From positions 888,501-952,500 of the forward strand of contig NZ_AP019783.1 of NCBI RefSeq assembly GCF_019670005.1: a stretch of DNA of 64,000 nt, given 5' to 3'. The notes beneath the pieces were generated by a model. That model was not told the origin of the DNA. It searched no databases and worked only from the letters and a program-made list of their open reading frames with translations. The translations under genes were made by a program, and so were the position numbers. The DNA comes from Methylomagnum ishizawai. Lineage in GTDB: Bacteria > Pseudomonadota > Gammaproteobacteria > Methylococcales > Methylococcaceae. Shown one piece after another: positions 28,019 to 48,721 of this stretch. The first letter of the stretch is position 1. Every line of letters starts with the position of its first letter.

Positions 28019-28178
28019 TATGACCGCTTGGGTTGTTGATAACCAGGCCGATTGCACTGGAACGGGGCGGTTGTTCGGAGTTCTTGGTGCGGGGCGGGGC
28101 GGAAGGTTCCGCCCGGCGCTGTGCCGGGGCGGGCTAAGGCCTTGAACCGCCAAGCCTAAGCCGGTCCGGGCGGCGTTT

Positions 28179-28192
28179 GGCATCGTCCCTGC
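28179..28192 (+). promoter_or_regulatory. Sigma54 promoter of the nitrate transporter gene
   Basis: TTGGCATCGTCCCTGCAT contains GG at 28179-28180 and GC at 28191-28192 with exactly 10 bases between, the -24/-12 layout. Transcription would start near 28203, just before the first ANTAR hairpin at 28208. Confidence 0.8.
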
Positions 28193-28207
28193 ATACGGCC
28201 CCGCGTG

Positions 28208-28295
28208 GTCGTCCTAATGGCGGGGCGGCGCGATTCTGACAAAGGCGTCTTGCGAACCCTACTCTTCGAGCGGGGTTCGCCGGACGCCTTTTTTT
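28208..28295 (+). promoter_or_regulatory. ANTAR (NasT) antiterminator leader of the nitrate transporter gene
   Basis: Hairpin P1 (28208-28229) has an 8-bp stem closing the hexaloop AATGGC. Hairpin P2 (28238-28249) has GAC/GTC closing the hexaloop AAAGGC. Both loops carry A at position 1 and G at position 4, the ANTAR recognition signature. The P2 loop and 3' arm are also the 5' arm of an intrinsic terminator (AAAGGCGTC at 28241-28249 with GACGCCTTT, plus GCGAACC/GGTTCGC, ending in seven T at 28289-28295). NasT bound to P1-P2 would block the terminator. Confidence 0.85.
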
Positions 28296-28342
28296 GTGCC
28301 CAGGAAAAGGCACGCTTACTCCAAACCCACGGGTGCTTAGCG

Positions 28343-29620
28343 ATGAACCTCAAGGAATTCAAACAAGCGGGCCATTGGCCGACGCTGTTATCGGCCTTTT
28401 TGTATTTCGACGTGTCCTTCATGGTCTGGGTGATGCTGGGACCGTTGTCGCTCTACATCACCAAGGACCTGGGGATTCCGGTCGGGGAGAAATTCACCCT
28501 GGTCGCCATTCCCATCCTGTCGGGGGCGGTGTTCCGCATCGTCCTGGGCTCGCTGGCCGACCATCTCGGGGCCAAGCTGACCGGCATCCTGGCCCAGATG
28601 TTGGTCATCGCGGGGATGGCCTATGTGTTCTTGTTCGGGCTGGGCTCCAAGTTGGAGGTGGAGTTGCTGGGCGGGCTGTTGGGTGTGGCCGGGGCCAGTT
28701 TCGCCGTGGCCTTGCCGCAGGCCAGCCGTTGGTATCCACCCAAGTTCCAGGGCATCGTGATGGGCATCGCCGGGGCGGGCAATATGGGCGTGGTGCTGGA
28801 TTCGATGATCGTGCCGGTGCTGGCGGAAAAATTCGGCTGGCAGGCGGTGTTCGGCTTCCTGATGATCCCGCTGCTCATCGTGCTGGTGATTTATGCGGTC
28901 CTGGTCAAGGACGCCCCGGACAAGCGCGCCCCGGTCACGTTCGCCAATTACGCGGCGGTGTTGAAGGACGTGGATTGCTGGTGGTTCATGTTCTTCTATT
29001 CCATCACCTTCGGCGGTTTCGTGGGCCTCGGGAACGCGCTGCCCTTGTATTTCACCAGTTGGTACCACGTTTCCGGGGTCGCGGCGGGGTTGATGGCGGC
29101 CATCGTGGTGTTCGCCGGGTCGATGTTCCGGCCTTTGGGCGGCTATCTGGCCGACCGGCTGGGCGGCATCAAGGTCTTGCAGGTGTTGTTCGTGCTGGTC
29201 TCGCTGTGCTATCTCGCGATCTCGTTCATGCCGGAAGGCCCGGCCGCGCCCAGCACCAGCGCCGAGGCCAAGGTGGCGGGCTGGGGCTTCCTGGAATTGC
29301 CCGCCGTGGCCTGGGGGGCGGTCGCCATCTTCTTCGTGGGCACGCTGTCGCTGGGGATGGGCAATGGCTCGGTATTCCAATTGGTGCCCTTGCGCTTCCG
29401 CAAGGAAATCGGCGTGGTCACGGGCTTGGTGGGCTGCGCCGGGGGCGTGGGCGGGTTTTTCCTGGCGAAGGCGCTGGGCTGGTCCTGGGAGATGCAACAT
29501 GGGTTCGCCTTGGGGTTCAGCGTGTTCGCGCTGCTGCCTTTGTTCGGGCTGGGCGGGTTGTTGCTGGTCAAGCGGCGCTGGCGCACCACGTGGGGCGCGG
29601 TGGCGGAGGCGCGGGTATAG
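28343..29620 (+). CDS. narK: Nitrate/nitrite transporter, NNP family (MFS)
   Basis: This 425-residue inner-membrane protein with about 12 membrane helices takes up nitrate, or exchanges nitrate and nitrite. The two glycine-rich nitrate-signature segments are present: MGIAGAGNMGVVLDSMIVP (about 137) and GLVGCAGGVGGFFLAKALG (about 355). The MFS loop after TM2 is VLGSLADHLGAKLTG. The start MNLKEFKQAGHWPTL is family-typical; the upstream open frame runs through the leader hairpins and is not coding. It begins 48 bp after the leader terminator and is followed by the phosphatase-kinase gene, as in the Pseudomonas nitrate assimilation cluster. Confidence 0.92.
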   Translation: MNLKEFKQAGHWPTLLSAFLYFDVSFMVWVMLGPLSLYITKDLGIPVGEKFTLVAIPILSGAVFRIVLGSLADHLGAKLTGILAQMLVIAGMAYVFLFGLGSKLEVELLGGLLGVAGASFAVALPQASRWYPPKFQGIVMGIAGAGNMGVVLDSMIVPVLAEKFGWQAVFGFLMIPLLIVLVIYAVLVKDAPDKRAPVTFANYAAVLKDVDCWWFMFFYSITFGGFVGLGNALPLYFTSWYHVSGVAAGLMAAIVVFAGSMFRPLGGYLADRLGGIKVLQVLFVLVSLCYLAISFMPEGPAAPSTSAEAKVAGWGFLELPAVAWGAVAIFFVGTLSLGMGNGSVFQLVPLRFRKEIGVVTGLVGCAGGVGGFFLAKALGWSWEMQHGFALGFSVFALLPLFGLGGLLLVKRRWRTTWGAVAEARV

Positions 29621-31476: not shown

Positions 31477-31514
31477 ATGCCCGAATCCCAGTCTCCACGC
31501 CCGTCGCGCCGTCC

Positions 31515-31528
31515 GGCACGATCCCTGC
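31515..31528 (+). promoter_or_regulatory. Sigma54 promoter of nirB
   Basis: CGGCACGATCCCTGCTAA has GG at 31515-31516 and GC at 31527-31528 with 10 bases between, and a GGCACG box close to the -24 consensus. Transcription would start near 31539, 15 bp before the first ANTAR hairpin. Confidence 0.82.
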
Positions 31529-31554
31529 TAATAATCCAGGCAACGGCCCCCACG

Positions 31555-31639
31555 CGCCAACGGCGGCGACCCAGGGCCAATGACAAAGGCGTCATGCATC
31601 CAGCGGAGTTTTCCGCATCGGCTGCGGACGCCTTTTTTT
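31555..31639 (+). promoter_or_regulatory. ANTAR (NasT) antiterminator leader of nirB
   Basis: P1: CGCC/GGCG stem with hexaloop AACGGC (31555-31568). P2: ATGAC/GTCAT stem with hexaloop AAAGGC (31580-31595). The P2 loop and 3' arm AAAGGCGTC (31585-31593) form the 5' arm of the terminator that ends GACGCC plus seven T (31627-31639); an inner GCGGA/TCCGC hairpin fills its loop. P2 and the terminator are mutually exclusive. nirB starts 58 bp further on. Confidence 0.87.
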
Positions 31640-31697: not shown

Positions 31698-34139
31698 ATG
31701 AGCAAGCAGAAACTGATCCTGGTCGGCAATGGCATGGCCGGTATGCGCACCGTGGAAGAACTCCTGAAACGGGCACCGGACCTGTACGACATCACCGTGT
31801 TCGGGGCCGAACCCCACACCAATTACAACCGCATCCTGCTGTCCCCGGTGCTGACCGGGGAAAAGCGCCTGCAAGACATCGTCATCCACGACGAGGCTTG
31901 GTACGCCGAGCGCGATATCACCCTCCACAAGGGCCGTCCCATCGCCGCCATCGACCGCCACAAACGCCGGGTCCGCACGGCGGATGGCCTGGAACTCGGC
32001 TACGACCGGCTATTGCTCGCCACCGGCTCGCTGCCGTTCATCCTGCCGGTGCCGGGCAAGGATTTGGACGGCGTCATCGGCTTCCGCGATATCGGCGATG
32101 TGAACCGGATGCTGGAAGCTTCGGAACAATACTCCCATGCCGTGGTGATCGGCGGCGGCTTGCTCGGCCTCGAAGCCGCCAACGGTCTCCGGCAGCGCGG
32201 CATGAAAGTCACCGTGGTGCATTTGCTCGACACGCTGATGGAGCGGCAATTGGATAAGCCCGCCTCCGACCTGCTGAAAGCCGCGCTGGAAAAGAGCGGC
32301 CTGGAATTCAAGCTGGAAGCCCAGACCGAAGCCTTGTTGGGCGAGGAGGGCCGGGTCAGGGCGGTCAGGTTCAAGGACGGCGCGGAAATCCCCGCCGATC
32401 TGGTGGTGATGGCCGTGGGCATCCGCCCCAATGTGGAACTGGCCAAAGCCGCCGGACTGCACTGCGAACGCGGCATCCTGGTGGACGACGGCCTCAAGAC
32501 CTTCGATCCCCATATCTACGCCGTGGGCGAATGCGTGCAGCATCGTGGCCAGTTGTTCGGGCTGGTCGCGCCCTTGTTCGAGCAGGCCAAGGTTTGCGCC
32601 GAGCATCTGGCCGGTCCGAGCGCCGCGGCCTACGAAAGTTCGGCGACCTCCACCAAGCTCAAAGTGACCGGCATCGATGTGTTCTCCGCCGGGGATTTCC
32701 AGGGCGGCGCGGACACCGAGGAACTGGTGTTCCAGGACCGGGGCCGGGGCGTCTACAAAAAGCTGGTGCTGCGCGATAACCGCATCCAGGGCGCGGTGCT
32801 ATACGGCGATACCGCCGACGGGGCTTGGTATTTCCAGCTGATGCGGGAAGGCACCGATATCGCGGCGATCCGCGAGCAGGTGCTGTTCGGCCAGGCCCAG
32901 GTGGACGCGGCGGGCGCGGGTCCGGCTCCCGTCAACCGCGCCGCCGCCCTGCCGGACGGGGCCGAGGTTTGCGGCTGCAATGGCGTGTGCAAGAAAACCA
33001 TCGTCGATGCCATCGTCGGCCACAAGCTGTCCAGCCTGGACGAGGTGCGGGCGCAGACCAAGGCTTCGGCCTCCTGCGGTTCCTGCACCGGTTTGGTCGA
33101 GCAAATCCTGCAACATACCTTGGGCGGGGCTTACGCGGCGGGCGAGGCCAAGAAATCCCTGTGCAAATGCACCGGCCACAGCCACGAGGACATCCGCGCC
33201 GCCATCCGCGAACGCAACCTCAAGAGCATTCCCGAACTCATGCGGGCGCTGGCCTGGAAAACCTCGGATGGTTGCCACACCTGCCGCCCGGCCCTGAATT
33301 ATTACCTGTTGTGCGCCTGGCCGGAGGAGTACCGCGACGACCCGCAATCCCGCTTCGTCAACGAGCGCAAGCACGCCAATATCCAGAAGGACGGCACCTA
33401 CTCGGTGGTCCCGCGCATCTGGGGCGGCGTCACCAGCGCCCAGGAACTCAGGGCCATCGCCGATGTGGCGGAAAAATTCCAGGTGCCCTGCGTCAAGATC
33501 ACCGGCGGCCAGCGTATCGACCTGTTGGGCGTGCCGGGCGAGCAATTGCCGGATATCTGGGCGGAACTGGGCCGGCACGGACTGGTGTCGGGCCATGCCT
33601 ACGGCAAGGCGCTACGCACGGTGAAAACCTGCGTCGGCCAGGAATGGTGCCGGTTCGGCACCCAGGATTCGACCCAAATGGGCATCGAACTGGAGCAAAT
33701 GACCTGGGGCTCCTGGACCCCGCATAAATTCAAGATGGCGGTGTCGGGCTGTCCGCGCAATTGCGCCGAGGCCACCATCAAGGATTTCGGCGTGGTGGCG
33801 GTGGAGTCCGGCTGGGAATTGCATGTCGGCGGCAATGGCGGGATCAAGGTGCGGGCCACCGACCTGCTGTGCAAGGTCGAGACCCCCGAGGAGGTGAAGG
33901 AATATTGCGGTGCCTTCATGCAGTTGTACCGCGAAGAGGCCCGCTATCTGGAACGCACCGCGCCCTGGATCGAGCGGGTCGGGCTGGATTTCGTCAAGCG
34001 CCATATCGTCGAGGACGCGGCGGGGCGCAAGGCGCTGTATGCGCGGTTCCTGCAATCGCAAGCACCGGCCCAGGTCGATCCCTGGGCCGAACTCTCGAAA
34101 CAGCGCGAGCAATTCGCGCCTTTGCACAAGCTGGGGTGA
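31698..34139 (+). CDS. nirB: NAD(P)H-dependent nitrite reductase, large subunit
   Basis: This 813-residue cytoplasmic enzyme reduces nitrite to ammonium. Domains in order: FAD/NAD(P)H oxidoreductase (about 1-310, KLILVGNGMAGMRTVEEL and VVIGGGLLGLEAANGL); two BFD-type [2Fe-2S] segments (CGCNGVCKKTIVDAI...CGSC near 425-465 and CKCTGHSHEDIRAAI...CHTC near 490-535); a ferredoxin-like nitrite-reductase half domain (550-620); and the sirohaem/4Fe-4S site with CVGQEWC and SGCPRNC (about 645-690). The start MSKQKLILV is set by homology and follows GCAGGAAACC. nirD follows after 3 bp. Expression is expected to depend on the leader attenuator upstream. Confidence 0.96.
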   Translation: MSKQKLILVGNGMAGMRTVEELLKRAPDLYDITVFGAEPHTNYNRILLSPVLTGEKRLQDIVIHDEAWYAERDITLHKGRPIAAIDRHKRRVRTADGLELGYDRLLLATGSLPFILPVPGKDLDGVIGFRDIGDVNRMLEASEQYSHAVVIGGGLLGLEAANGLRQRGMKVTVVHLLDTLMERQLDKPASDLLKAALEKSGLEFKLEAQTEALLGEEGRVRAVRFKDGAEIPADLVVMAVGIRPNVELAKAAGLHCERGILVDDGLKTFDPHIYAVGECVQHRGQLFGLVAPLFEQAKVCAEHLAGPSAAAYESSATSTKLKVTGIDVFSAGDFQGGADTEELVFQDRGRGVYKKLVLRDNRIQGAVLYGDTADGAWYFQLMREGTDIAAIREQVLFGQAQVDAAGAGPAPVNRAAALPDGAEVCGCNGVCKKTIVDAIVGHKLSSLDEVRAQTKASASCGSCTGLVEQILQHTLGGAYAAGEAKKSLCKCTGHSHEDIRAAIRERNLKSIPELMRALAWKTSDGCHTCRPALNYYLLCAWPEEYRDDPQSRFVNERKHANIQKDGTYSVVPRIWGGVTSAQELRAIADVAEKFQVPCVKITGGQRIDLLGVPGEQLPDIWAELGRHGLVSGHAYGKALRTVKTCVGQEWCRFGTQDSTQMGIELEQMTWGSWTPHKFKMAVSGCPRNCAEATIKDFGVVAVESGWELHVGGNGGIKVRATDLLCKVETPEEVKEYCGAFMQLYREEARYLERTAPWIERVGLDFVKRHIVEDAAGRKALYARFLQSQAPAQVDPWAELSKQREQFAPLHKLG

Positions 34140-34142
34140 GCC

Positions 34143-34460
34143 ATGGGCGAATGGATCGAAATCGGCCACATCGACGATATCCCGCCGCAAGCCGCCCGCA
34201 CGGTGGCGACGGCCTTCGGCGATATCGCGGTATTCCGCACGGTGGACGACCGCTTTTTCGCGGTGCGCGACCGCTGCCCGCACAAGGGCGGGCCGCTGTC
34301 GCAGGGGATCGTGCATGGCGGGCGGGTCGCCTGTCCCTTGCATAACTGGGTGATCGATCTCGCCACGGGCGAGGCGGTGGCCCCGGATAAGGGCTGCGCC
34401 CATCGCTATGCGGTGAAGGTGGAGGCGGGGCGCTTGTTCCTGGGATCGGCGGTGCGATAG
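34143..34460 (+). CDS. nirD: Nitrite reductase small subunit (Rieske-like)
   Basis: A 105-residue Rieske-fold protein that partners NirB. It has both cluster-ligand pairs, CPHKGG (about 46-51) and CPLHNW (about 66-71), so unlike E. coli NirD, which lacks the ligands, it probably binds a [2Fe-2S] cluster. It begins 3 bp after nirB and ends 56 bp before the nitrate reductase gene, consistent with one nirB-nirD-nas operon. Confidence 0.93.
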   Translation: MGEWIEIGHIDDIPPQAARTVATAFGDIAVFRTVDDRFFAVRDRCPHKGGPLSQGIVHGGRVACPLHNWVIDLATGEAVAPDKGCAHRYAVKVEAGRLFLGSAVR

Positions 34461-34516: not shown

Positions 34517-37180
34517 ATGAACGCCACATCCCCCATCCGCACCACCTGCCCTTACTGCGGCGTCGGCTGTGGCGTCCTGGCGACGCCGACCGGGCCGGAA
34601 TCCGCGCTCATCCAGGGCGACCCGGAACATCCCGCCAATGCCGGGCGGCTCTGTTCCAAGGGTTCGGCCCTGGGCGAAACCCTGTCGCTCGCAACCCGGT
34701 TGCTCCATCCCCGGATCGGCCCGCGCCGGGTCGGCTGGGACGAAGCGCTCGACAAGGTGGCGGGCGAATTCCGCCGCGTCATCGATACCCACGGACCCGG
34801 GGCCGTGGCCTTCTATGTCTCCGGCCAATTGCTGACCGAGGATTATTACCTCGCCAACAAGCTGATGAAGGGCTATATCGGCTCGGCCAATATCGACACC
34901 AATTCCCGGCTGTGCATGTCCTCCACCGTGGCGGGGCAGAAACGCGCCTTCGGCGAGGACGTGGTGCCGGGTTGCTACGAGGATTTGGAACAGGCCGATT
35001 TGATCGTGTTGGTGGGTTCCAATGCCGCGTGGTGCCATCCGGTGCTGTTCCAGCGCATCGTGAAGGCCAAACAGGACCGGCCCGGCCTCAAGCTGGTCAC
35101 TATCGACCCGCGCCGCACCGCCACTTCGGAATCCGCCGACCTGCATCTTGCCATCCGGCCTGGCAGCGATGTGATGCTGTTCAACGGCTTGCTGAATTAT
35201 CTGCGCCAGCACGACCGGCTGGATTTCGGTTTCATGGAGCGGCATTTGGTCGGCCTATCCCAAGCCCTGGACATGGCGCGGGACAGCGCCCCGTCGGTGC
35301 CCGCCGTGGCCCTGGCCTGTGGGGTGCCGGAAACCGATCTCGCCCGCTTCTACCAATGGTTCGCCCGCACCGAAAGGACAGTCACCGCCTGGTCGCAGGG
35401 CGTGAACCAATCCAGCAGCGGCACCGACAAGGTGAATGCCATCCTCAATGTGCATCTGGCGACGGGCCGTATCGGCAAGCCGGGCATGGGGCCGCTGTCC
35501 CTGACCGGCCAGCCCAACGCCATGGGGGGGCGCGAAGTGGGCGGCTTGGCCAACCAACTGGCGGCGCACCTGGATATCGAAAATCCGCGGCACCGGGCCT
35601 GGGTGCGCGAATTCTGGAACGCGCCGCGCATGGCGGAACAACCGGGCCTGAAAGCCGTGGAGCTATTCCAGGCCATCGAACAGGGCCGGGTGAAGGCGGT
35701 GTGGATCATGGCGACCAATCCCGTGGTCAGCCTCCCGGATGCGGTGGCGGTGCGGCGGGCGCTCGCGGCTTGCGAGTTCGTGGCGGTCTCGGATTGCGAG
35801 GCCGCTACCGATTTGGCGGCCTATGCCCATGTCAGCCTGCCCGCCGCGGCCTGGGGCGAGAAGGACGGCACCGTGACCAATTCCGAGCGGCGGATTTCCC
35901 GGCAACGCGCCTTCCTGCCGCTGCCGGGCGAGGCCAAGCCGGATGGGTGGATCATCGCCGAGGTCGCCCGCCGCATGGGCTATGCCGAAGGTTTCGCTTA
36001 TGCCTCGCCCCGCGATATTTTCGTGGAACATGCCCGGCTGTCCGGGTTCCACAACGAAGGACGGCGCTTATTCGATATTTCCGGGCTGGCCGGACTCGAC
36101 GCCGCCGCCTACGACGCGCTGCCACCCACGCAATGGCCGGTGAACGCGGCGCATCCGCAAGGCACCGCCCGCTTGTTCGCCGCGGGCGGATTCCCCGGCC
36201 CGGAAGGCAAGGCGCGGCTGTTGCCCTTGCCGCCCAAGCCGCCGGCCCATCCGCCCGATCCGGATTATCCGCTGGTCCTCAACACGGGCCGCATCCGCGA
36301 CCAATGGCACACCATGACCCGCACCGGCAAAGCGGCGCGGCTCGGCCATCATTTGCCCGAACCCTACGCCGAATTGCACCCGGACGACGCCGCCCGCTTG
36401 GAGGTCGCGGACGGGGCTTTGGTCCGGCTGGCCAGCCGCCACGGTACGGCCCTGGCCCGCGCCCGCGTCACGCCGGACCAGCAAACAGGTTCGGTGTTCA
36501 TGCCCATGCATTGGAGCGACACCCAGTCCCGGCGCGGTGGGGTGAATGCCTTGGTGAATCCGGTGGTCGATCCGGTGTCGGGCGAACCCGAATCCAAGCA
36601 TACGCCGGTCCGGGTCGAGGCTTACCGGCCCGCTTGGCACGGGTTCCTCCTGTCGCGGGAGGCTGTGGAAATTCCCGGCCCGGACTACCGGGTCGCCGTG
36701 CGCGGCGCGGGCTATTGGCGCTATGAACTGGCGGGCGAAACCGCGCCGGATGATTGGCGGTCCTGGGCGGGGTCTATCCTGATGCAAGAGGGCGCTGCCG
36801 ACTGGTTGGAATTCGCCGATGCCCGCGCCGGGCGCTACCGTTGCGCCGTGCTGGGCGGCGGGCGGTTGCGGGCTTGTTTGTTCGTCGGGGCGGAGTCGAT
36901 ATTGCCGTCCCGCGATTGGCTGGCGGGCTTGTTCGCCCAAGAGGCCTTGCCGGAGCGGGACCGGGCGGCCTTGCTGGCGGGACGGCCCGCCGTCGCCGGG
37001 AGCGATCCGGGCCGTACCGTCTGCGCTTGCTTCGGGGTGGGCGTGAATGTTTTGCGGAGCGCGATCCAAAGCCAGGGCTTCACCACGGTGGAGCAGATCG
37101 GCGCGGCGCTCAAGGCCGGGACCGGCTGCGGTTCCTGCCTACCGGAGTTGAACCGCCTGCTGCGCGGGACGCGGTCTTAA
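34517..37180 (+). CDS. nasA: Assimilatory nitrate reductase, catalytic subunit with C-terminal BFD domain
   Basis: This 887-residue molybdopterin enzyme reduces nitrate to nitrite in the cytoplasm. The N-terminal [4Fe-4S] ligands are in TTCPYCGVGCGVLA and GRLCSKG; the Mo-bisMGD domains follow (NSRLCMSSTVAG, LVGSNAAWCHPVL, WSQGVNQSSSGTDKVNAI); the molydopterin dinucleotide-binding domain is at about 575-700 (NTGRIRDQWHTMTRTGKA). A C-terminal BFD-like [2Fe-2S] domain is present (CACFGVGVNVLRSAIQ...CGSCLPEL, about 830-880), as in Klebsiella NasA. No Tat signal, as expected for an assimilatory enzyme. The symbol follows Klebsiella; Pseudomonas authors use other names. Confidence 0.94.
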   Translation: MNATSPIRTTCPYCGVGCGVLATPTGPESALIQGDPEHPANAGRLCSKGSALGETLSLATRLLHPRIGPRRVGWDEALDKVAGEFRRVIDTHGPGAVAFYVSGQLLTEDYYLANKLMKGYIGSANIDTNSRLCMSSTVAGQKRAFGEDVVPGCYEDLEQADLIVLVGSNAAWCHPVLFQRIVKAKQDRPGLKLVTIDPRRTATSESADLHLAIRPGSDVMLFNGLLNYLRQHDRLDFGFMERHLVGLSQALDMARDSAPSVPAVALACGVPETDLARFYQWFARTERTVTAWSQGVNQSSSGTDKVNAILNVHLATGRIGKPGMGPLSLTGQPNAMGGREVGGLANQLAAHLDIENPRHRAWVREFWNAPRMAEQPGLKAVELFQAIEQGRVKAVWIMATNPVVSLPDAVAVRRALAACEFVAVSDCEAATDLAAYAHVSLPAAAWGEKDGTVTNSERRISRQRAFLPLPGEAKPDGWIIAEVARRMGYAEGFAYASPRDIFVEHARLSGFHNEGRRLFDISGLAGLDAAAYDALPPTQWPVNAAHPQGTARLFAAGGFPGPEGKARLLPLPPKPPAHPPDPDYPLVLNTGRIRDQWHTMTRTGKAARLGHHLPEPYAELHPDDAARLEVADGALVRLASRHGTALARARVTPDQQTGSVFMPMHWSDTQSRRGGVNALVNPVVDPVSGEPESKHTPVRVEAYRPAWHGFLLSREAVEIPGPDYRVAVRGAGYWRYELAGETAPDDWRSWAGSILMQEGAADWLEFADARAGRYRCAVLGGGRLRACLFVGAESILPSRDWLAGLFAQEALPERDRAALLAGRPAVAGSDPGRTVCACFGVGVNVLRSAIQSQGFTTVEQIGAALKAGTGCGSCLPELNRLLRGTRS

Positions 37181-37314: not shown

Positions 37315-38592
37315 ATGAGCGCCGCCCTCGAAAAACGCGAGCTGACCCTGGGCTTCATCCCCCTGACCGATTGCGCCCCCTTGGTCATCGCCCTGGAAAA
37401 AGGCTGGTTCGCCAAGTATGGCTTGGAAGTCCGCCTGTCCCGCCAAGTGTCCTGGGCCAATATCCGCGACAAGGTGGCGGTCGGGGTGCTGGACGGTGCC
37501 CATATGCTGGCGGCGATGCCCATCGCCACCACCCTGGGCCTGGGCGAGATCAAACAGCCCATGGTCGCCGCGCTGTCGCTGGACCTCAACGGCAATGCCA
37601 TCACCGTATCGCCCGATTTATACCAGCGGATGGCGGAGGCCGACCCCGAGGCCGCGCAGGCACAGCCGATGACGGCGCGGGCGCTGGCGCGGGTCGTCGC
37701 GCAGGAGCGCGGGGCCGGGCGTCCACCGATGAATTTCGCCATGGTGTTCCCGTTCTCGACCCATCACTATCTGCTGCGCTATTGGCTGGCCGCGGGCGGC
37801 ATCGATCCCGACCGCGATACCCGGTTGCTGGTGGTGCCGCCGTCCTACATGGTGGAGTGCCTGAATATGGGCGAGATCGACGGCTATTGCGTGGGCGAGC
37901 CCTGGAACGAACAAGCCGTGGCCGTGGGCGTGGGGCGGACCTTGATTACCGACTACGACATCTGGAACAACCATCCCGAGAAGGTGTTCGGCGTCACCCG
38001 CGATTGGGCCGAGCGCCACCCCCACACCCACCGCGCCGTGCTGATGGCCTTGCTGGAAGCCGCGCGCTGGATCGATCAACCGGAACACCGGCTGGAAGTG
38101 GCCGAAATCCTGGCCCGCGAAGACTATGTGAACGCGCCGGCCGAGGTGGTGAAGATGTCCATGACCGGCTCGTTCCAATACCAAGCCGGGGCCGCGCCCC
38201 GCGCCTGCCCGGATTTCAACGTGTTCCACCGCTATGCCGCCAATTTCCCCTGGCGTTCCCATGCCATGTGGTTCGTGACCCAGATGTACCGCTGGGGCCA
38301 GTTGGAGGAGCCCAGGAATATCCGCGAGGTCGCGGAACAGGTCTACCGTCCCGACCTGTACCGGGAAGCGGCCCATGCCTTGGGGCTCGCCAGTCCCGCC
38401 GTGGACTACAAAACCGAGGGCGGGCACGCCGGGCCATGGACGCTGGACGGCCCGGCACCCATCGCCTTGGGCGCGGACCGGTACGCCGATGGCCGTTGTT
38501 TCGATCCCGCCGATCCGGTGGGCTATCTGCGGCAATTCGATATCCATCGGTTGCGGGTGTCCTTGGACCAACTGGCCGGGCTGAATCCATGA
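37315..38592 (+). CDS. nasS: Nitrate sensor NasS (NrtA/CmpA-like)
   Basis: A 425-residue protein of the NrtA/CmpA nitrate/bicarbonate-binding family. It starts directly with the ligand-binding fold (TLGFIPLTDCAPLVIALEKGWFAKYGLEV) and lacks a signal peptide or lipobox, so it is cytoplasmic, which distinguishes the sensor NasS from transport subunits; no NrtB or NrtC genes are nearby. In Azotobacter and other bacteria NasS holds NasT inactive until nitrate or nitrite binds. Its stop overlaps the nasT start (ATGA). A gap of 134 bp separates it from the nitrate reductase gene; I saw no promoter or ANTAR hairpins there. Confidence 0.92.
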   Translation: MSAALEKRELTLGFIPLTDCAPLVIALEKGWFAKYGLEVRLSRQVSWANIRDKVAVGVLDGAHMLAAMPIATTLGLGEIKQPMVAALSLDLNGNAITVSPDLYQRMAEADPEAAQAQPMTARALARVVAQERGAGRPPMNFAMVFPFSTHHYLLRYWLAAGGIDPDRDTRLLVVPPSYMVECLNMGEIDGYCVGEPWNEQAVAVGVGRTLITDYDIWNNHPEKVFGVTRDWAERHPHTHRAVLMALLEAARWIDQPEHRLEVAEILAREDYVNAPAEVVKMSMTGSFQYQAGAAPRACPDFNVFHRYAANFPWRSHAMWFVTQMYRWGQLEEPRNIREVAEQVYRPDLYREAAHALGLASPAVDYKTEGGHAGPWTLDGPAPIALGADRYADGRCFDPADPVGYLRQFDIHRLRVSLDQLAGLNP

Positions 38593-39170
38593 ACGCAGAG
38601 CGATTGAAAATCATGCTGGTCGATCAGGACGCCGGGCGCAGCGCCATCCTGCGCCAAGCCCTGAGCGACGCCGGGCATACGGTGGTGGCCCGCATCGAGC
38701 CGGGCCGGAGCCTCCTGGGCGAGGTGCAATCGTGCCAGCCCGACATCGTCATCGTCGATATGGAAGCGCCGGGCCGCGACACCCTGGAGCAAATGCGCGA
38801 AATCGGCCGCGACCAGCCCAAGCCCATCATCCTGTTTTCCAACAAGCGCGATGGCGAATACATCCGCCAGGCGGTGCAGGCCGGGGTCAGCGCCTACGTG
38901 GTGGACGGCCTGAGCCGGGAGCGGATCATGCCCATCGTCGAGGTGGCGATAGCGCGGTTCCGCGAGTTCGAGGCGCTGCGGCAGGAATTGCACGAGACCA
39001 AGAGCCAACTGGCCGACCGCAAGGTGATCGACAAGGCCAAGGGCGTGTTGATGCAGCGCCGGGGCTTGAGCGAGGACGCGGCCTATCAGTTGCTGCGCAA
39101 GGCCGCGATGGACCGCAATCTCAAGGTGGCCGAGGTGGCGCGGACCTTGTTGGCGCTGGAAGGCTTGTAG
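38589..39170 (+). CDS. nasT: Nitrate-responsive antiterminator NasT (receiver plus ANTAR)
   Basis: This 193-residue protein has a receiver domain (about 8-122; acceptor-site aspartate in PDIVIVDMEAPG) and a C-terminal ANTAR RNA-binding domain (about 128-190; KSQLADRKVIDKAKGVLMQRRGLSEDAAYQLLRKAAMDRN). ANTAR proteins bind paired hexaloop hairpins in leader RNA and prevent terminator formation. Three leaders with exactly such hairpins lie in this window, before narK, nirB and the porin gene. Start ATG at 38589 overlaps the nasS stop by four bases, giving one sensor-effector unit. Confidence 0.96.
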   Translation: MNAERLKIMLVDQDAGRSAILRQALSDAGHTVVARIEPGRSLLGEVQSCQPDIVIVDMEAPGRDTLEQMREIGRDQPKPIILFSNKRDGEYIRQAVQAGVSAYVVDGLSRERIMPIVEVAIARFREFEALRQELHETKSQLADRKVIDKAKGVLMQRRGLSEDAAYQLLRKAAMDRNLKVAEVARTLLALEGL

Positions 39171-39254
39171 CGGCCCGCCGGACACGGCGGAGTGTTCTAT
39201 ACCTTGGGTTCCCAGGTCGCCAAACCGGGCTTGGGCGCCGAAATGATTTCCGTT

Positions 39255-39381
39255 CCATGCCAATGGCGGCATGGGGTGGTTCCGATCCCTGATTTTTCTC
39301 CCTAGCCAGCGGCGGCGGGGAGCGGACAACGGCGTCCATGCGGGTCGCGCCTTAGGCGTGGTCCGTGTGGACGCTTTTTTT
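39255..39381 (+). promoter_or_regulatory. ANTAR (NasT) antiterminator leader of the porin gene
   Basis: P1: a perfect 7-bp stem CCATGCC/GGCATGG with hexaloop AATGGC (39255-39274). P2: GGAC/GTCC with hexaloop AACGGC (39324-39337). The terminator is GCGTCCA (39332-39338) paired with TGGACGC (39368-39374) plus seven T (39375-39381); it uses the P2 3' arm and part of its loop, so P2 and the terminator exclude each other. The P1-P2 spacer is 49 nt, longer than the 8 and 11 nt of the other two leaders. A GG-N10-GC at 39207-39220 is only a weak sigma54 candidate. Confidence 0.82.
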
Positions 39382-39424
39382 GTGTCCGGGCCCGGCCGCC
39401 CATCGACCCGACGAGGATTGACCC

Positions 39425-40975
39425 ATGATTCGAGCATTGCATCTCCCATCCCATCCGCCGACCTTGGCCATCGTCCCCAAGCCCTGGGCTTGGTCTGGGT
39501 TGGTTGCCTGCCTGTGGGGCGCCGCCGCCCAGGCCGCCGATGAAGCGCCCTTGGGCCAGATCGGCCCCAATTTCAGGGTATTGGGCGAATTGCGCGGGCG
39601 TTTCGAAGCCTTCGATTTTTTCCAGCCCGCGATCAATCCGGCCCAGGGCGTGGTCGCCAACCAGAACGATTATGCCTTCGGGGCGCTGCGGGCGCGGTTG
39701 GGCGTCGCCATGACCACGCCCTGGGTGGATGGCTTGGCCCAGGGGGAATATACCGGGCTGTATGATTTGCCCACCCATGCCTTCGGCGGGCCGGGGGTCG
39801 GGCCTTTGGGCCTGGGCGGAGCCTATTACGCCGACAGTGGCAAGAATGTCTCGTCCGGCGATGTGCATATCAAGCAGGCTTATCTGAACTTCAAACTCCA
39901 GCCCATGGTGGGCTTGGCCAACACCTATTTCAAAGGTGGCCGCTTCGAGTTTTCGGATGGCTTGGAATATAAGACCGGCGATGCCAAGTTCGATGGGTTG
40001 AAGACCACCCGGATTTCCCAGCGCCTGATCGGCCCGTTCGACTTCGCCCATGCCACCCGCAATCTCGACGGCTTCGCGCTGAACTACGACGCCCCGGACT
40101 TCAATGTCACCCTCACCGCCACCCATCCGACCCAGGGCGGTTTCAATATCCGGGCCGAAGACCAAATCAGCCATATCGATCTGGCCTATGGCGCGATCAC
40201 CAGCAAGAAGGGGGCATTGCTGCCCGATACCGAGGCCCGGCTGTTCTATCTCTATTACGGCGACAACCGCGGTGTCCAGCCCACCGATAACCGGCCCTTG
40301 GCCGATAGGCCCAAACTGAGCCAGGACGCCTTGGCCATCAGCACGGTCGGCACCCATGCCTTGACCGTACAGAAGATCGGTCCCGGCAGTCTCGACGGGG
40401 TGTTTTGGGGGGCTTACCAGTTCGGCGATTGGGGCAATCTCAACCAGGACGCCTGGGCCGTCACCCCGGAAATCGGCTACCAATTCACCGATGTGATGTT
40501 CAAACCTTGGCTCCGGGCCGGTTATTTCCGCAGTTCCGGCGATAGCAACGCCAAGGACGGTACCCATGGCACGTTCTTCCAGGTGTTGCCCACGGTCCGG
40601 CTGTACGCCAAGTTCCCGTTCTTCAACTTGATGAATATACAGGATGTGTTCGCCCAGTTCTCGGTGCTGCCCACCGACACCACCAAACTCGGCGTGGATG
40701 TCCACCATCTTTCGCTGGGCGATAGCCACGACTTGTTCTATGGCGGCTCGGGGGCCACCTCGCGGAGCGGGAGTTTCGGCTATTTTGGCCGTGCCTCCGG
40801 TGGGCATAGCAGCATCGGCCAGTTGGTGGACGTGACCTTCACCCATACCATCTCCAAGTATTTTTCCTGGAGCGCCTATTACGCCCATGTCTTCGGGTCC
40901 GATGTCGCCCGCAGCGACTACGCGCTCCAGAACGACGCCAATTATGGTTTCCTGGAAATCAACGCCTCGTTTTGA
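39425..40975 (+). CDS. Outer-membrane porin of the alginate-export (AlgE-like) family, candidate nitrate porin
   Basis: A 516-residue protein with a long basic N-terminal lead and signal peptide (WSGLVACLWGAAAQAA, cleavage near residue 38), followed by a beta-barrel pattern of alternating aromatic strands ending in F (LEINASF), the usual outer-membrane C-terminus. The body matches alginate-export-type porins (LGELRGRFEAFDFFQ, LRARLGVAM, AYLNFKL, KFDGLKTTRISQRLIG). Despite the family name, the neighbourhood contains no alginate genes. Control by the third NasT-type leader indicates that it works with nitrate uptake, probably as the outer-membrane channel for nitrate or nitrite. That role is inference. 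Confidence 0.8.
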   Translation: MIRALHLPSHPPTLAIVPKPWAWSGLVACLWGAAAQAADEAPLGQIGPNFRVLGELRGRFEAFDFFQPAINPAQGVVANQNDYAFGALRARLGVAMTTPWVDGLAQGEYTGLYDLPTHAFGGPGVGPLGLGGAYYADSGKNVSSGDVHIKQAYLNFKLQPMVGLANTYFKGGRFEFSDGLEYKTGDAKFDGLKTTRISQRLIGPFDFAHATRNLDGFALNYDAPDFNVTLTATHPTQGGFNIRAEDQISHIDLAYGAITSKKGALLPDTEARLFYLYYGDNRGVQPTDNRPLADRPKLSQDALAISTVGTHALTVQKIGPGSLDGVFWGAYQFGDWGNLNQDAWAVTPEIGYQFTDVMFKPWLRAGYFRSSGDSNAKDGTHGTFFQVLPTVRLYAKFPFFNLMNIQDVFAQFSVLPTDTTKLGVDVHHLSLGDSHDLFYGGSGATSRSGSFGYFGRASGGHSSIGQLVDVTFTHTISKYFSWSAYYAHVFGSDVARSDYALQNDANYGFLEINASF

Positions 40976-41480: not shown

Positions 41481-42617
41481 CTACGGGAAGCGGAGGATCA
41501 TCAGCGAGAAGTCGTCGCTGATCCGGCCCTGCCGGGCCAGGGCCGCGATCTCGCGGTAGACCGCCTGGGCCGGGACCGGGTCGGGTTGTCCCGTCGCCAA
41601 GGCCCGGAATTCGCCGAGGCTCCATTCGCCGCCGTCCGGCAGGCTGATCTCGAACACCCCGTCGCTATACACCCACAGCGTGCTGGCGGGCGGTAGGGCG
41701 AGTTCCTGTTGCTGGAAATCCCCCGTCGGCAACACCCCCACGAACAGTCCGCCCGTGGTCAAATCCCGCGCCGCGTCCCGGCCCGGACTCAGGAGGAGGG
41801 CGGGCGGATGCCCGCCCGAGGCGAACACCAGGTGCCGGGTGGAAACCCGGTACACCCCATACCAGATCGAAAAGAACATCTCGCCGTGCTGTTCCATCCC
41901 CAGGGCCGCGTTCAGCCCGTTCAACACCTGGGCGGGCTGGCCGAAATCCACGTTCGCCAGCGACTTATGCCGCAGCACGTTCAGCACCGAGACCGCGTGC
42001 ATGGCGGGTCCGACCCCGTGTCCGCACACATCCACCAGATAGAACGCGAAGCGGTCCGCGTCCAGCCAGCCATAGCCCAGGCCGTCGCCGCCCAGCACGG
42101 CGGAAGGCACGAAGCACCAATCCACCCGCACCGGCCCTTGGCCCAAGGGGGGTGGCAACAGGGATTGGACATATTCGCTGGCTTTCTGGAGGTCGGCGGC
42201 CAGGGTTTCCGATTCCCGCATGGAAGGCTTGTGGCGGTATTCGTGCTTGAGGACGTGGTTGCCGATGCGGAGCAATCCGTCCACCGGCCATAGGGTCTGG
42301 CCGGCGATCTTGCGCTCGTCGATGAAAGTGCCGTTGGTGGAGCCTAGGTCTTCCACCCAGACCAGGGGATGTTGCAGGCTGACGCGGCAATGCTGCTTGG
42401 AAACGCAATGGTCGGGCAGGCGCAGCGCGTTGTCGGAATGCCTGCCGATGGTGAGTGGCTGTTCGCCCAGTTCGACGGTTTGGCCGCGTTCGCTGCCGGC
42501 GATGACCAGGAGGTAATGGGCGTTGCCGTCGTCGCCGTCCTTGCGTATGGAGGGGCCTGGGGCAAAGAAGCCGGTCTTGTCTTCGTCCATCGGGGTGGTG
42601 TGTTCCGTATCGTTCAT
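41481..42617 (-). CDS. FHA-domain SpoIIE/PP2C-type phosphatase
   Basis: A 378-residue cytoplasmic protein. The N-terminal FHA domain (about 45-125) has GRHSDNALRLPDHCVSKQHCRV and GSTNGTFID, which bind phosphothreonine. A short linker helix follows, then a SpoIIE/RsbU-type PP2C domain (about 165-378) with GGDGLGYGWL, LVDVCGHGVGPAMHAVSVL, ASGGHPPALLL, LWVYSDGVFE and SDDFSLMIL. Such proteins dephosphorylate anti-anti-sigma factors or read out kinase signalling. The membrane kinase-phosphatase at 29681-31402 is the only kinase in the window and a conceivable partner, though the genes are 10 kb apart. Confidence 0.86.
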   Translation of the reverse strand: MNDTEHTTPMDEDKTGFFAPGPSIRKDGDDGNAHYLLVIAGSERGQTVELGEQPLTIGRHSDNALRLPDHCVSKQHCRVSLQHPLVWVEDLGSTNGTFIDERKIAGQTLWPVDGLLRIGNHVLKHEYRHKPSMRESETLAADLQKASEYVQSLLPPPLGQGPVRVDWCFVPSAVLGGDGLGYGWLDADRFAFYLVDVCGHGVGPAMHAVSVLNVLRHKSLANVDFGQPAQVLNGLNAALGMEQHGEMFFSIWYGVYRVSTRHLVFASGGHPPALLLSPGRDAARDLTTGGLFVGVLPTGDFQQQELALPPASTLWVYSDGVFEISLPDGGEWSLGEFRALATGQPDPVPAQAVYREIAALARQGRISDDFSLMILRFP

Positions 42618-43314: not shown

Positions 43315-44565
43315 ATGAGATTGCGATACGGCTTGGCGGCCTTGCTGTGCCTATGCGCCGCCGCGTCCGCGCAGGGTCAAGACCTCGTGGTCGAACATTA
43401 CGACGACCTGCGTTTCGACGAGCGCATGACCCTCAAACAGGCGGTCGAGGCCACGTTCGAGAAATATCCCCAGCAGACCCTGTTGACCGCCTTCGAGGAG
43501 GAGGCGCGGGCCTTGGAGCAGCGCGGCGCGAGTTGGATCGCGGGCTACCCCATGATCTATCTGCAATGGATCGACGACGCCTTGATCGACAACAAGGGTT
43601 CCCAGGATTTGCAGACCGGCTATCAGGTGCCCCTGTGGATGTGGGACCAGCGCAAGGCCGGCCAGCGGGTGGCGGACGAGGCCAAGAAAAGCGCCGAGAC
43701 CTATGCGCGGGCGCTCCGGCACGAGGTGGCCGGTTTGGTGCGCGAATCCCTGTGGAACCTCCGGTTGGTGGAGAACCGCTATGGGGTGGCCCGGCAAATC
43801 TACGAGGTGGCCGAGCAATTGACCGACGTGGTGCGGCGGCGGGTGGAACTCGGGGATTTGGCGCGGGCCGATTTGCTGCTGGCCGAGAGCGACCAGTTGG
43901 AGAAGAAAACCGCCCTGGTCCAGGCCGAGGCCGAAGTGATGCACGCCCGCAAGGCTTACCAGAACCTCACCCGGCTGTCGCGGGCACCGAAAACCTTCGA
44001 CGAGGCGCAAAGTCCTTTGCGCGGCTTCGACGAAAGCCATCCCGCCCTGGCCGCCGCCAATGCCCTGGTGGAGCGGGCGCAGGCCGAAGTCGAATTCACC
44101 CGCTTGTCCAAGCAGGGCAATCAGCCGACCTTGTTGCTGGGCACCGATACCTCGCGCGGCAGCCCCAAGGACAATTTCAGCACCGGCAACAACATCGTGC
44201 TGCAAATCCCGCTCGGCGGCGACGCCTGGCACGCCCCGGTGGTGGCCCAGGCCAATGTGTTCCTCTCCGAGCGCCTGACCCAGCGCGAAATCCTCTGGCG
44301 GCAATTGGAAAAAGCCTTGCACGAGGCCGAACACACCCTGGAAGTGGACCGGACCGCCCTGGCCATCGCCGAGCGCCGCAAGGAAATCGCCGGGACGCAA
44401 CTCAAGATGAGCCGCTTGGCCTTCGAGACCGGGGAAATCGCCTTGATCGACTATCTGAAAATCCAGGCCGGCGCCCAGGCCGCCATCCAGGAAGCCGCCC
44501 AGCGGGCCATCCTGGTCCAGAAGGACACGGCAATCTATAACCAAGTGGTGGGAGTGACCCCATGA
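43315..44565 (+). CDS. czcC: Outer-membrane efflux protein, TolC/CzcC family
   Basis: A 416-residue outer-membrane factor of a tripartite metal exporter. A signal peptide (LRYGLAALLCLCAAASA) is followed by two long alpha-helical repeats with coiled-coil character (about 45-225 and 235-410), as in CzcC and CusC. The proteins form a trimeric channel through the outer membrane. It overlaps the adaptor gene by four bases (ATGA). The symbol indicates family only; the transported metal cannot be told. Confidence 0.85.
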   Translation: MRLRYGLAALLCLCAAASAQGQDLVVEHYDDLRFDERMTLKQAVEATFEKYPQQTLLTAFEEEARALEQRGASWIAGYPMIYLQWIDDALIDNKGSQDLQTGYQVPLWMWDQRKAGQRVADEAKKSAETYARALRHEVAGLVRESLWNLRLVENRYGVARQIYEVAEQLTDVVRRRVELGDLARADLLLAESDQLEKKTALVQAEAEVMHARKAYQNLTRLSRAPKTFDEAQSPLRGFDESHPALAAANALVERAQAEVEFTRLSKQGNQPTLLLGTDTSRGSPKDNFSTGNNIVLQIPLGGDAWHAPVVAQANVFLSERLTQREILWRQLEKALHEAEHTLEVDRTALAIAERRKEIAGTQLKMSRLAFETGEIALIDYLKIQAGAQAAIQEAAQRAILVQKDTAIYNQVVGVTP

Positions 44566-45674
44566 GCAGCGTCAAACGCGTCGGTTTTCGTTACGTCCTG
44601 CCGCTCTTGTTGGGCTGGGCGGTTCCGGTCCACGCCTTGGAGAACACCGTCCGCCTCACCCCCGAGCAAATCAGCCATCTCGGTATCCGCGCCGTTCCGC
44701 CGGAAGCGGTCACGGCCTTGCCCTTGTCCCAGGCACCGGGCCGGGTGGTGCTGCCGCCCGCCAAGGAATTCGTGGTGTCGGCCTTGCAGGCCGGGGTCAT
44801 CAGCCATGTCAACGTGCCCTTGGGGGTCAAGGTGGGCAAGGGCCAAGCCTTGGCCCAACTGCGCAGCGCCACCTTGCTGGATGCCCAGCGCAGCCTGATC
44901 GACGCCGCTTCCGAGTACGAACTGGCCCGCGCCAAGTTGGACCGCGACCAGACCTTGCTGCAAGAAGGCGTGATTTCCAAGCTGCGCTGGCAGGAAACCA
45001 GGGGCGCGTTCGACAAGGCCCAGGCCGCGCTGGGCGAGGCCGAGCAAATCCTGATCGCCTCCGGGGTCGGTCCCGCCGATGTGGCGCGGATCAAGGCCAA
45101 GCATCAACTCGACAGCGCGATGGAGGTGCGCTCGCCCATCGACGGCGTGGTGCTGGAACGCATGGCCGTGGTCGGGCAAAGGGTGGACGCCATGGCCCCG
45201 TTATTCCGCATCGGCAAGCTGGACGAACTGTGGTTGGAAGTGGACATGCCGCAGGAGCGCCTGCGCGAGGTCAAGCTGGGCGACAGGATCGCGGTCGAGA
45301 ATCCCAAGGCCGCAGCCCGTATCATCGAGGTGGGCCAGAACGTCGATGCCCAGAGCCAAAGCGCCCTGGTCCGCGCCGTGGTGGACCAGGGCGCGGAGAA
45401 CCTCCGGCCCGGCATGAACCTCAATGTGCAATTGATGCATCGCAGCACCGACCGGATTTTCCGTGTCCCGGTCGCGGCGGTCATCAGCCACGAGGGCAAG
45501 AACTACGTGTTCGTGAAGACCGCCGAGGGCTACGCGGCGCGGGAAGTGGCGGTGGCGGGGCAGGAAGCCTACAGCGTCACCGTGCATGAGGGCTTGGAGC
45601 CGGGCGACGAGGTCGCGGCCCAGGGCGTGGCGGGGCTCAAGGCGGCGTGGCTCGGCATGGGGGAAGGCGAATGA
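44562..45674 (+). CDS. czcB: RND efflux periplasmic adaptor, CzcB/CusB family
   Basis: A 370-residue membrane-fusion protein linking the inner-membrane pump to the outer-membrane channel. Signal peptide (YVLPLLLGWAVPVHA), then barrel-sandwich/lipoyl half motifs (VISHVNVPLGVKVGKGQALAQL and SPIDGVVLERMAVVGQRV) flanking an alpha-hairpin (about 105-165), and a beta-barrel domain to the C-terminus. It lies in a tight operon, overlapping czcC upstream and czcA downstream by four bases each. Confidence 0.88.
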   Translation: MSSVKRVGFRYVLPLLLGWAVPVHALENTVRLTPEQISHLGIRAVPPEAVTALPLSQAPGRVVLPPAKEFVVSALQAGVISHVNVPLGVKVGKGQALAQLRSATLLDAQRSLIDAASEYELARAKLDRDQTLLQEGVISKLRWQETRGAFDKAQAALGEAEQILIASGVGPADVARIKAKHQLDSAMEVRSPIDGVVLERMAVVGQRVDAMAPLFRIGKLDELWLEVDMPQERLREVKLGDRIAVENPKAAARIIEVGQNVDAQSQSALVRAVVDQGAENLRPGMNLNVQLMHRSTDRIFRVPVAAVISHEGKNYVFVKTAEGYAAREVAVAGQEAYSVTVHEGLEPGDEVAAQGVAGLKAAWLGMGEGE

Positions 45675-48600: not shown

Positions 48601-48721
48601 CGGGCCGGGGTCGGAGATCCAGCGGCCCTTGGCGGTGGTGGGCGTGGGGGGATTGTGTACCTCCACGCTGCTGACTTTGGTGATGTTGCCGGTTTTGTAT
48701 CGGCGCTGGGGGGAGGGTTAA
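45671..48721 (+). CDS. czcA: Heavy-metal RND efflux pump, CzcA/CusA family (first copy)
   Basis: This 1016-residue proton-driven inner-membrane transporter has twelve membrane helices and two large periplasmic loops. The family start is MMARLIQFALTQRVFALLLALLLAG, the first loop begins DAFPDVSPTQVKI, and the TM4 motif is GGLAIAIGKLVDPAVVVVENI, which carries the proton-relay aspartate. This motif differs from the textbook Co/Zn (CzcA) and Cu/Ag (CusA) forms, so I leave the substrate open. The start at 45671 overlaps czcB by ATGA; a second ATG follows directly. Confidence 0.9.
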   Translation: MMARLIQFALTQRVFALLLALLLAGAGWLAAMNLPIDAFPDVSPTQVKIIVKVPGMTPEEVEARVTAPVEVELLGIPKQTMLRSIAKYALTDITLDFEEGTDIYWARQQVAERLNGVWANLPANAEGGMAPMTTPLGEMFMFTVEGGDLSLADRRSLLDWVIRPALRTVPGVADVNTLGGRVRSFEVIPDNMRMAARGVSIGELTTALKANNRNDGAGRLVQGEESLLVRAEGRIVDLDDVRTIVIVQRNGIPITVGDVAEVRIGALTRYGAVSQNGKGEAVEGLVLSLRGANARQVVAGLEQKLEEIQPALPKGVKIDVFYNRAHLVEKATYTIIHALVEATVLVLVLLLAFLGDVRAALTVACILPMVALFTFLLMHQFGLTANLMSLGGLAIAIGKLVDPAVVVVENITAHLAEHGKAQRLPRLHIIYRAMREITAPVVSGAMIIGIVFVPLFSLEGLEGKLFKPVAFTNVFAMSGSLIFSLIVIPVLASFLMTQVKHEEPWLARQFLALYRPVLLWSLAHGRTVMAGAGLLLLSTLFVYNQIGKTFMPTMDEGDIIVQVEKLPSITLEESVRLDQQIQKAIMEHVPEVVRAVSRVGVDEIGLDPMGLNETDNFFVLKPQAEWRMKTKEELTEAIRKVLDTIPGIAYGFTQPIQMRVTEMLTGVRGDVAVKLYGPELSVLNAKAEEIAAAMKKIPGASDVFTVRNEGMQYLVVKLDRLAAGRLGLDADALADTLRAQIEGLKLGIVQEDIRRTPLLLRGSGEPAHMATLQIALPDGRRVPLSAVAKIEPVEGVVAVNRERGQRYASVRSNVEGRDLVGFVEDAKRAVAEQVQLPTGYYIQWGGQFENQQRAADRLAVVIPLSIGLIFLLLFSTFGSVRQAGLVLANVPLALIGGVYGVWISGEYLSVSASVGFISLLGIAVLNGVVMVSYFNQLRALGLPMDEVVVTGALRRLRPVLMTAGIAAFGLIPLLFATGPGSEIQRPLAVVGVGGLCTSTLLTLVMLPVLYRRWGEG

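Follow-up and report, generated by a model that had tools for sequence, protein, structure and literature searches.

Does the nitrate switch NasS–NasT of the methanotroph Methylomagnum ishizawai reach as far as the outer membrane? The question is raised by a gene for an outer-membrane porin that lies behind nasT in a 64,000-nt stretch of the genome, positions 888501-952500 of its contig (the window, to which all coordinates below refer). An initial annotation had given this gene its own NasT-type leader and proposed the porin as an outer-membrane nitrate channel. To our knowledge, outer-membrane passage of nitrate has rarely been tied to a named porin. The explanation we favor, with a probability of roughly 0.6, is that NasS–NasT switches the porin on with nitrate through two adjacent leader hairpins, P1' and P2, and that its barrel admits nitrate and/or nitrite.

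The porin gene and its leader

The window contains a nas cluster on the + strand that runs from an MFS transporter through a PP2C/kinase fusion, nirB, nirD, a nasC-like reductase, nasS, and nasT to the porin. The MFS transporter gene (28300..29620; Pfam MFS_1, 113.1 bits) belongs to a mechanical ORF that opens at 28205, and its true start probably lies 3' of a leader. It is followed by the large (nirB, 31698..34139; NCBIfam nirB, 941.6 bits against a cut-off of 578.35) and small (nirD, 34143..34460; NCBIfam NirD, 94.6 bits, cut-off 74.65) subunits of nitrite reductase and by a nasC-like assimilatory nitrate reductase with a C-terminal BFD-like domain (34517..37180; NCBIfam NasC, 431.5 bits, below the cut-off of 1100). 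The next gene encodes an NMT1_2-type nitrate/nitrite sensor (37315..38592; Pfam NMT1_2, 321 bits), called nasS from its position and similarity, and it is adjoined by nasT, which encodes a REC + ANTAR antiterminator (38589..39170; Pfam ANTAR, 77.2 bits; Response_reg, 53.7 bits). A REC-ANTAR protein thus stands beside an NMT1-type sensor and nitrate assimilation genes, as in a NasS–NasT system, and in a whole-genome search NasT was the single ANTAR match. The PP2C phosphatase–protein kinase fusion (29681-31402), between the MFS gene and nirB, is a feature that several relatives retain in their nas clusters. Beyond the porin, the window holds a gene for an FHA-SpoIIE protein on the − strand (41481-42617) and, at 43315-48721 on the + strand, genes for an outer-membrane efflux protein and an HlyD-type protein, with a 1024-aa ORF after them; together they probably form an RND efflux operon.

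What lies between nasT and the porin? Two exclusive structures occupy the 3' part of this leader (+ strand): P2, a hexaloop hairpin recovered by sequence, RNA folding, and covariance models (ggac[AACGGC]gtcc, 39324..39337), and an intrinsic terminator of 20 pairs (39332-39374) with seven T (39332..39381 in all). The terminator's 5' arm starts within the P2 loop and takes in the P2 3' arm, so that P2 would act as an antiterminator; a fold of 39296-39383 yields the terminator. Further upstream lies a perfect hairpin, here called P0 (ccatgcc[AATGGC]ggcatgg, 39255..39274), which our covariance models R1 and R2 match with a P1 half only, at 22.1 and 21.8 bits, respectively. Both hairpins had been described by the initial annotation, and base-by-base inspection bears out the seven Watson–Crick pairs of P0 and the overlap of P2 with the seven-T terminator.

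Inside the gap between P0 and P2, and 1 nt upstream of P2, is another hexaloop hairpin, P1' (CUCCCU-a-GCC[AGCGGC]GGC-GGGGAG, 39298..39322), with one bulged A, a C:G closing pair, and a folding energy of −14.1 kcal/mol. An ungapped hairpin scan recovered its inner part only; RNA folding gave the longer, bulged stem. The 45-nt piece 39296-39340 folds as exactly P1' plus P2, with a z-score of only −1.8 against a competing, GC-rich background, and a C:G-closed A1/G4 hairpin placed 17 to 30 nt from the P2 loop reached an energy like that of P1' in 1 of 2,000 shuffles. P1' (AGCGGC), P2 (AACGGC), and also P0 (AATGGC) carry A1 and G4 in the loop on stems of at least 3 bp. P1' is likely the true P1 of the porin leader. 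P0 plus P1' as the two hairpins of the motif was also considered and rejected because P1' does not overlap the terminator.

The two-hairpin motif was then scored with R1 and R2, both trained without the porin leader; R2 comprises 12 leaders, none from the window. P1'–P2 was matched at 39299-39343 by R1 (28.8 bits) and R2 (31.1 bits). Across the 5.2-Mb genome, the top R1 matches were the leaders of the MFS gene (28207..28295, + strand; 50.2 bits) and nirB (31550..31639, + strand, two hexaloop hairpins and a terminator; 46.6 bits), both of them training rows, followed by the porin leader and, at 25.5 bits, by the next match elsewhere. R2, not trained on either, gave the MFS and nirB leaders 33.7 and 33.4 bits, and its three best matches within the window are the three leaders. 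The leaders had no match in Rfam at the gathering score. An alignment of 14 two-hairpin leaders (A2), which includes the MFS and nirB leaders and excludes that of the porin, has 93.7% of its stem cells paired and two-sided changes in 15 cells, compared with 4.6 in shuffles; this exceeds all 500 shuffles, and slid controls were far lower. Nearly all these changes belong to P1 or to the outer pair of P2, whose three other pairs are invariant. Counted as pairs rather than cells, A2 has 4 with changes on both sides, no more than expected from shuffling, where 131 of 500 attained that number. A second set (A3) holds 12 leaders and no window sequence.

These observations uphold the claim of three NasT-type leaders in the window, one of them belonging to the porin gene behind nasT. 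The porin leader is an ordinary mechanism, a member of the known kind of ANTAR leader, and closer to the usual design than had been held.

The porin itself (39425..40975, + strand) is a 516-aa member of Pfam Alginate_exp (PF13372; 79.4 bits against a cut-off of 25.2), the only match to that family in the genome. Its AlphaFold2 model (mean pLDDT 72.9, pTM 0.76) is a predicted 18-strand outer-membrane barrel of the AlgE/OprD type; the best match in the PDB is AlgE (Z 26.8, rmsd 3.0 over 364-365 residues, 12% identity), followed by OprD/Occ porins (Z about 21-24). A search of solved structures by sequence, with the porin profile, found nothing; the match came from the fold. Its conserved charged positions, 14 basic and 16 acidic, have no anion bias, and because the two are about equal, anion selectivity cannot be read from the sequence.

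Recurrence behind nasT and the solute of the porin

How often do nasT, leader, and porin occur together? NasT was found in 75 of 121 relatives, among them 28 of the 38 genomes of the window's family (E ≤1e-20; the match in G025 is partial). An AlgE/OprD-type porin lies behind nasT in 21 of these 28, with 95 to 1106 nt between the matches, and in 3 more (G002, G016, and G012) it occupies another place in the nas cluster. The porin of G003, though unlinked to the nas genes, is preceded by a leader (locus L034; R2, 24.0 bits). No porin of the types described below was found in the 9.4 kb downstream of nasT in G011, and in two genomes nasT is near a contig edge, 327 nt from the end in G005 and with 678 nt behind it in G022, a stretch for which one type (C) was not covered. 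The longest nasT–porin gaps, 935-1106 nt, occur in genus g9 (five genomes); in the one g9 genome checked, a 144-aa ORF with KEIKEVE-type repeats (L050:7813-8247) lies between nasT and the porin leader.

In 18 genomes the porin gene is immediately preceded by a leader, which R1 recognized in 15 (E ≤0.01) and R2 in three (G003, G006, and G026; 24.0-25.0 bits). For eight of these 18 leaders the match is trivial, since they had been used for training; the remaining ten include those of G002 and G031, whose motif is identical to that of a training row. Among the 24 family genomes with a window-type porin, the leader was found in 14 of 19 with NasT and in 0 of 5 without it (Fisher P = 0.006, kinship ignored; R1 was run on all 24 genomes and R2 on 3 of the 5). 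Genome by genome, NasT and the window-type porin co-occur weakly: 19 of 38 have both, 9 NasT only, 5 the porin only, and 5 neither, leaving out weak porin matches in G012, G015, and G026. At greater distance, a window-type porin was found in 2 of 321 gammaproteobacterial genomes (E ≤1e-40), both in the window's family, and R1 leaders in 20, 18 of them outside it. In the eight of those 18 that we examined, the gene after the leader was never a porin; by Pfam it was NMT1-type in three and MFS in one, and by sequence nitrate-reductase-like in one, MFS-like in one, and NMT1-like in two. The leader–porin pairing that one would look for downstream of nasT in relatives recurs within the family. Because the porin leader ranks third genome-wide, NasT is the sole ANTAR match, and the order nasT–leader–porin recurs in the family, the porin is very probably a member of the NasT regulon, as had been proposed.

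The porin at this position is not always of one kind. Subfamilies A (the window type, 55-97% identity) and B (35-42%) can be aligned with each other. A third type, C, has no BLAST similarity to the window porin; it lies behind nasT and a leader in G015, G021, G026, and G030, behind nasT in G014 and G029 also, and beside an MFS gene in G012. The window porin and two porins of type C were scanned with Pfam, and the rest were placed by similarity; both of the type C porins belong to PF13372 (37.2 and 34.2 bits). The predicted structure of a C-type porin (pLDDT 66.3, pTM 0.64) resembles OprD/Occ porins (Z 24-26). The kinship of A/B with C rests on Pfam and fold, since a comparison of profiles is weak (hhalign probability 12.7, E 0.0023). 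Three porin subfamilies thus occupy the same nasT–leader slot. The retained leader and position, under a changing type of porin, are the best indication that the slot may serve nitrate uptake, by an argument from gene order and not by measurement.

Could the porin be regulated by NasT and nonetheless pass something other than nitrate? It might be a general pore for anions or small solutes, or meet another need, such as nitrite release or the supply of molybdate or another compound, a reading we regard as rather unlikely. Consistent with it are the unbiased conserved charges, the varied substrates of the nearest folds, AlgE and the OprD/Occ porins, and the relatives of the porin in non-nitrate loci. 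A scan of named genomes, restricted to the best 80 of 200 loci, found a nitrate-type gene near the porin in 20 of the 80 and not in 60, by a loose criterion (any NasT, NirB, or NirD match, or a NasC/NasS match of ≥30%, within the stretch) applied to stretches many of which were short. One relative has as its neighbors an AraC regulator, a permease, and a binding protein of the NMT1 type that carries a TAT signal (L077); another, in an ammonia oxidizer, is beside MFS transporter and amidohydrolase genes (L085). Because such members sit in quite different loci, the porin family as a whole is not bound to nitrate. Within the same best 80, relatives with 45-51% identity occur in the ammonia oxidizers Nitrosomonas and Nitrosospira (L083-L085, L087-L092), where they likely carry another substrate.

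Against a general pore stand the three subfamilies at one nasT–leader slot and the porins near nitrate-type genes in other groups. Among the best 80 of 200 loci, porins near nitrate-type genes, with similarities of 25-47% to window proteins, occur outside Methylococcales at L099, L102, L106, L107, L122, L123, L134, and L138, all of which except L107 we count here; L102 is the clearest, with nirB, nirD, nasC, MFS, and porin genes in a row. Because the subfamilies share the slot and other groups have nitrate-linked porins, nitrate or nitrite is favored over a by-product of one lineage, and it is reasonably likely that these anions are the porin's main solute. The porin accordingly stands as a candidate for an outer-membrane nitrate channel only, a putative function suggested by the regulon and the conservation of the slot.

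The extra hexaloop P0 and hairpin spacing

What, then, is P0? A seven-pair A1/G4 hexaloop hairpin arose in 14 of 20,000 dinucleotide shuffles of 39171-39324, and neither window strand has a second hairpin like P0. The sister species (G001) differs at 15 positions over 254 nt, none of which falls in 39244-39286 (P0) or 39292-39343 (P1' and P2). Two fall in the terminator, at 39344 and 39362, facing each other at the loss of 1 of 20 pairs. P0 is therefore an additional ANTAR-type hexaloop that is itself not due to chance. Since its arm pairs with P1' in the fold of the full leader (39250-39383), it could also interfere. A third hexaloop behind nasT also occurs in G007, which has the next most similar porin (ccggc[AACGGC]gccgg, L033:10636-10651, upstream of P1–P2); its equal was found in 24 of 5,000 mononucleotide shuffles, and its distance differs from that of P0. 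No third hexaloop was found in the eight other nasT–porin gaps scanned outside the genus. That P0 is a working part of a three-hexaloop leader, as a landing site for NasT or an arm of the switch, feeding a dedicated nitrate/nitrite channel slot filled by three subfamilies, is a doubtful proposition. Two P1 loops elsewhere start with G in place of A, namely GACGGC (L198:7900-7905, a C-type porin leader) and GAAGGT (L034:6501-6506, the unlinked porin of G003).

The initial annotation had taken P0 as P1 and proposed that a 49-nt spacer extends the geometry of ANTAR targets. The distance is real (39274 to 39324), but the assignment overlooked P1'. In the porin leader, loop-to-loop distances are 20 nt for P1'–P2 and 66 nt for P0–P2; the linker is 49 nt for P0–P2 and, for P1'–P2, 1 nt with the full stem or 8 nt between the 3-bp cores. 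In a scan restricted to 17-34 nt, the two other window leaders have loop-to-loop distances of 25 and 26 nt, and other genomes contribute 11 leader rows at 24-25 nt (these look like true leaders, the other rows like chance). By eye, the distance is about 27 nt in L057 and 29 nt in L034. Published linkers are 5-12 nt in eut leaders, where induction of Enterococcus faecalis eutP was drastically cut at 3 or 14 nt (PMC3369931), and 2-25 nt in curated actinobacterial ANTAR targets (PMC8164766); a 20-nt extension of the linker abolished antitermination in vitro, where the ANTAR dimer grips one hexaloop at a time (PMC8934654). The P0–P2 linker exceeds both ranges. P1'–P2 fits the published hexaloop rules, including the A1, G4, and C:G closing pair selected with NasR (PMC7496416), except in the length of its linker, which is a real weakness.

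It is very unlikely, in our judgment, that NasT binds P0 and P2 across 49 nt and that ANTAR targets tolerate such spacers. In favor of P0, its seven base pairs are unbroken, its loop has A1 and G4 and is closed by C:G, it is neither a chance structure nor altered in the sister species, and it shares the loop AATGGC with P1 of the MFS leader; the neighboring P1' has a very short linker. However, P1' lies directly before P2 and was chosen by both R1 and R2, P1 adjoins P2 in the leaders of other genomes, and an extra upstream hexaloop of at least five pairs occurs in one of nine other gaps outside the genus (G007), there beside an adjacent P1. A new geometry is not needed, because the hexaloop P1' adjoins P2 and longer linkers reduce or abolish antitermination in eutP, and the claim of a widened ANTAR-target geometry is not supported.

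A promoter of the porin leader is less evident than its hairpins. Of 16 leaders scanned, 12 have a σ54-like site 22-35 nt upstream of the P1 loop (10 strictly GG-N10-GC and 2 ending in GT), and no clear site precedes the window porin leader, L032, L033, or L034; the scoring used hand-set weights based on the σ54 consensus, and 27 sites on both window strands scored ≥13. For the MFS and nirB leaders, σ54-like GG-N10-GC sites (28178-28193 and 31514-31529) precede the P1 loop by 23 and 30 nt, respectively, which fits a general nitrogen control of nas genes. Because no clear σ54 site precedes it, the porin leader may be transcribed from nasST or from a promoter that the scan did not recognize. That the leader is a relic and the porin constitutive or expressed by read-through from nasST is most improbable: the missing σ54 site and the 6 of 21 porins behind nasT that lack a leader of their own would fit, but P1' and P2 are identical in both species of the genus, the terminator changes of the sister species cost only one pair, and the leader is retained in L034, where the porin is away from the nas genes.

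Proposed mechanism and comparison with known systems

In the mechanism that we favor, switching of the porin by NasS–NasT through P1'–P2, the porin gene would be one of three transcripts turned on with nitrate. RNA polymerase in the porin leader would halt by default at the terminator (39332-39381). Nitrate or nitrite would free NasT from NasS, and the freed NasT would hold P1' (39298-39322) and then P2 (39324-39337), so that P2 takes up the initial bases of the 5' arm of the terminator and polymerase reads through to the porin; the NasT binding and the nitrate induction are both presumed here. The 18-strand AlgE/OprD-type barrel might then pass nitrate and/or nitrite over the outer membrane, and their entry would feed the MFS permease, the nitrate reductase, and NirBD. 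Porin, permease, and reductases would come under one nitrate-specific RNA switch, an arrangement found in many genera, and the porin is well placed as a testable candidate for the entry of nitrate or nitrite through the outer membrane.

How does this locus compare with known systems? The NasS–NasT systems of Paracoccus, Azotobacter, Pseudomonas putida, and Bradyrhizobium likewise have an NMT1_2-type NasS and a REC-ANTAR NasT by nitrate reductase and nirBD; the difference here is a porin in the regulon. Binding of NasT to a nasA leader is published, and nitrate-dependent release of NasT is known in Paracoccus (PMC3795266). The words porin and outer membrane are absent from the portions of the Paracoccus NasS–NasT texts that were searched, and the accessible part of PMC4831470 is silent on this porin. 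In Bradyrhizobium, one outer membrane protein is among the genes raised, not lowered, in a nasT mutant. From titles and the beginnings of abstracts in the open-licence literature, with subscription papers outside the scope, we recognized neither a porin under NasT nor a named nitrate porin.

Among porins, the alginate exporter AlgE has its Pfam family (PF13372) and barrel fold in common with the window porin, which differs in sitting in a nitrate cluster. The genome gave no matches to alginate lyase, with a working control; a search for ALGX likewise gave none, its control being equally silent. OpdQ of Pseudomonas aeruginosa (OprD/Occ) is also an outer-membrane porin raised by nitrate, and its structure is close to that of the C-type porin (Z 25.1). 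In contrast to what we propose for the window porin, the nitrate effect on OpdQ is described as acting through NarXL at low oxygen, not through NasT antitermination (PMC4694141).

The closest likeness is to the ANTAR-target leaders of Enterococcus eut, Klebsiella nasF with NasR, and Paracoccus and Azotobacter nasA with NasT. They have in common A1/G4 hexaloops with a C:G closing pair and, as in the porin leader, a P2 that is exclusive with a terminator and an adjacent ANTAR gene. P1'–P2 is more tightly spaced than in related NasT leaders, at 20 nt from loop to loop compared with 24-26 nt. Unlike the known leaders, this one has a porin as its target and a third hexaloop, P0, upstream, which makes P0 a natural case for the published model of an ANTAR dimer that grips the hexaloops one at a time, the first and then the second.
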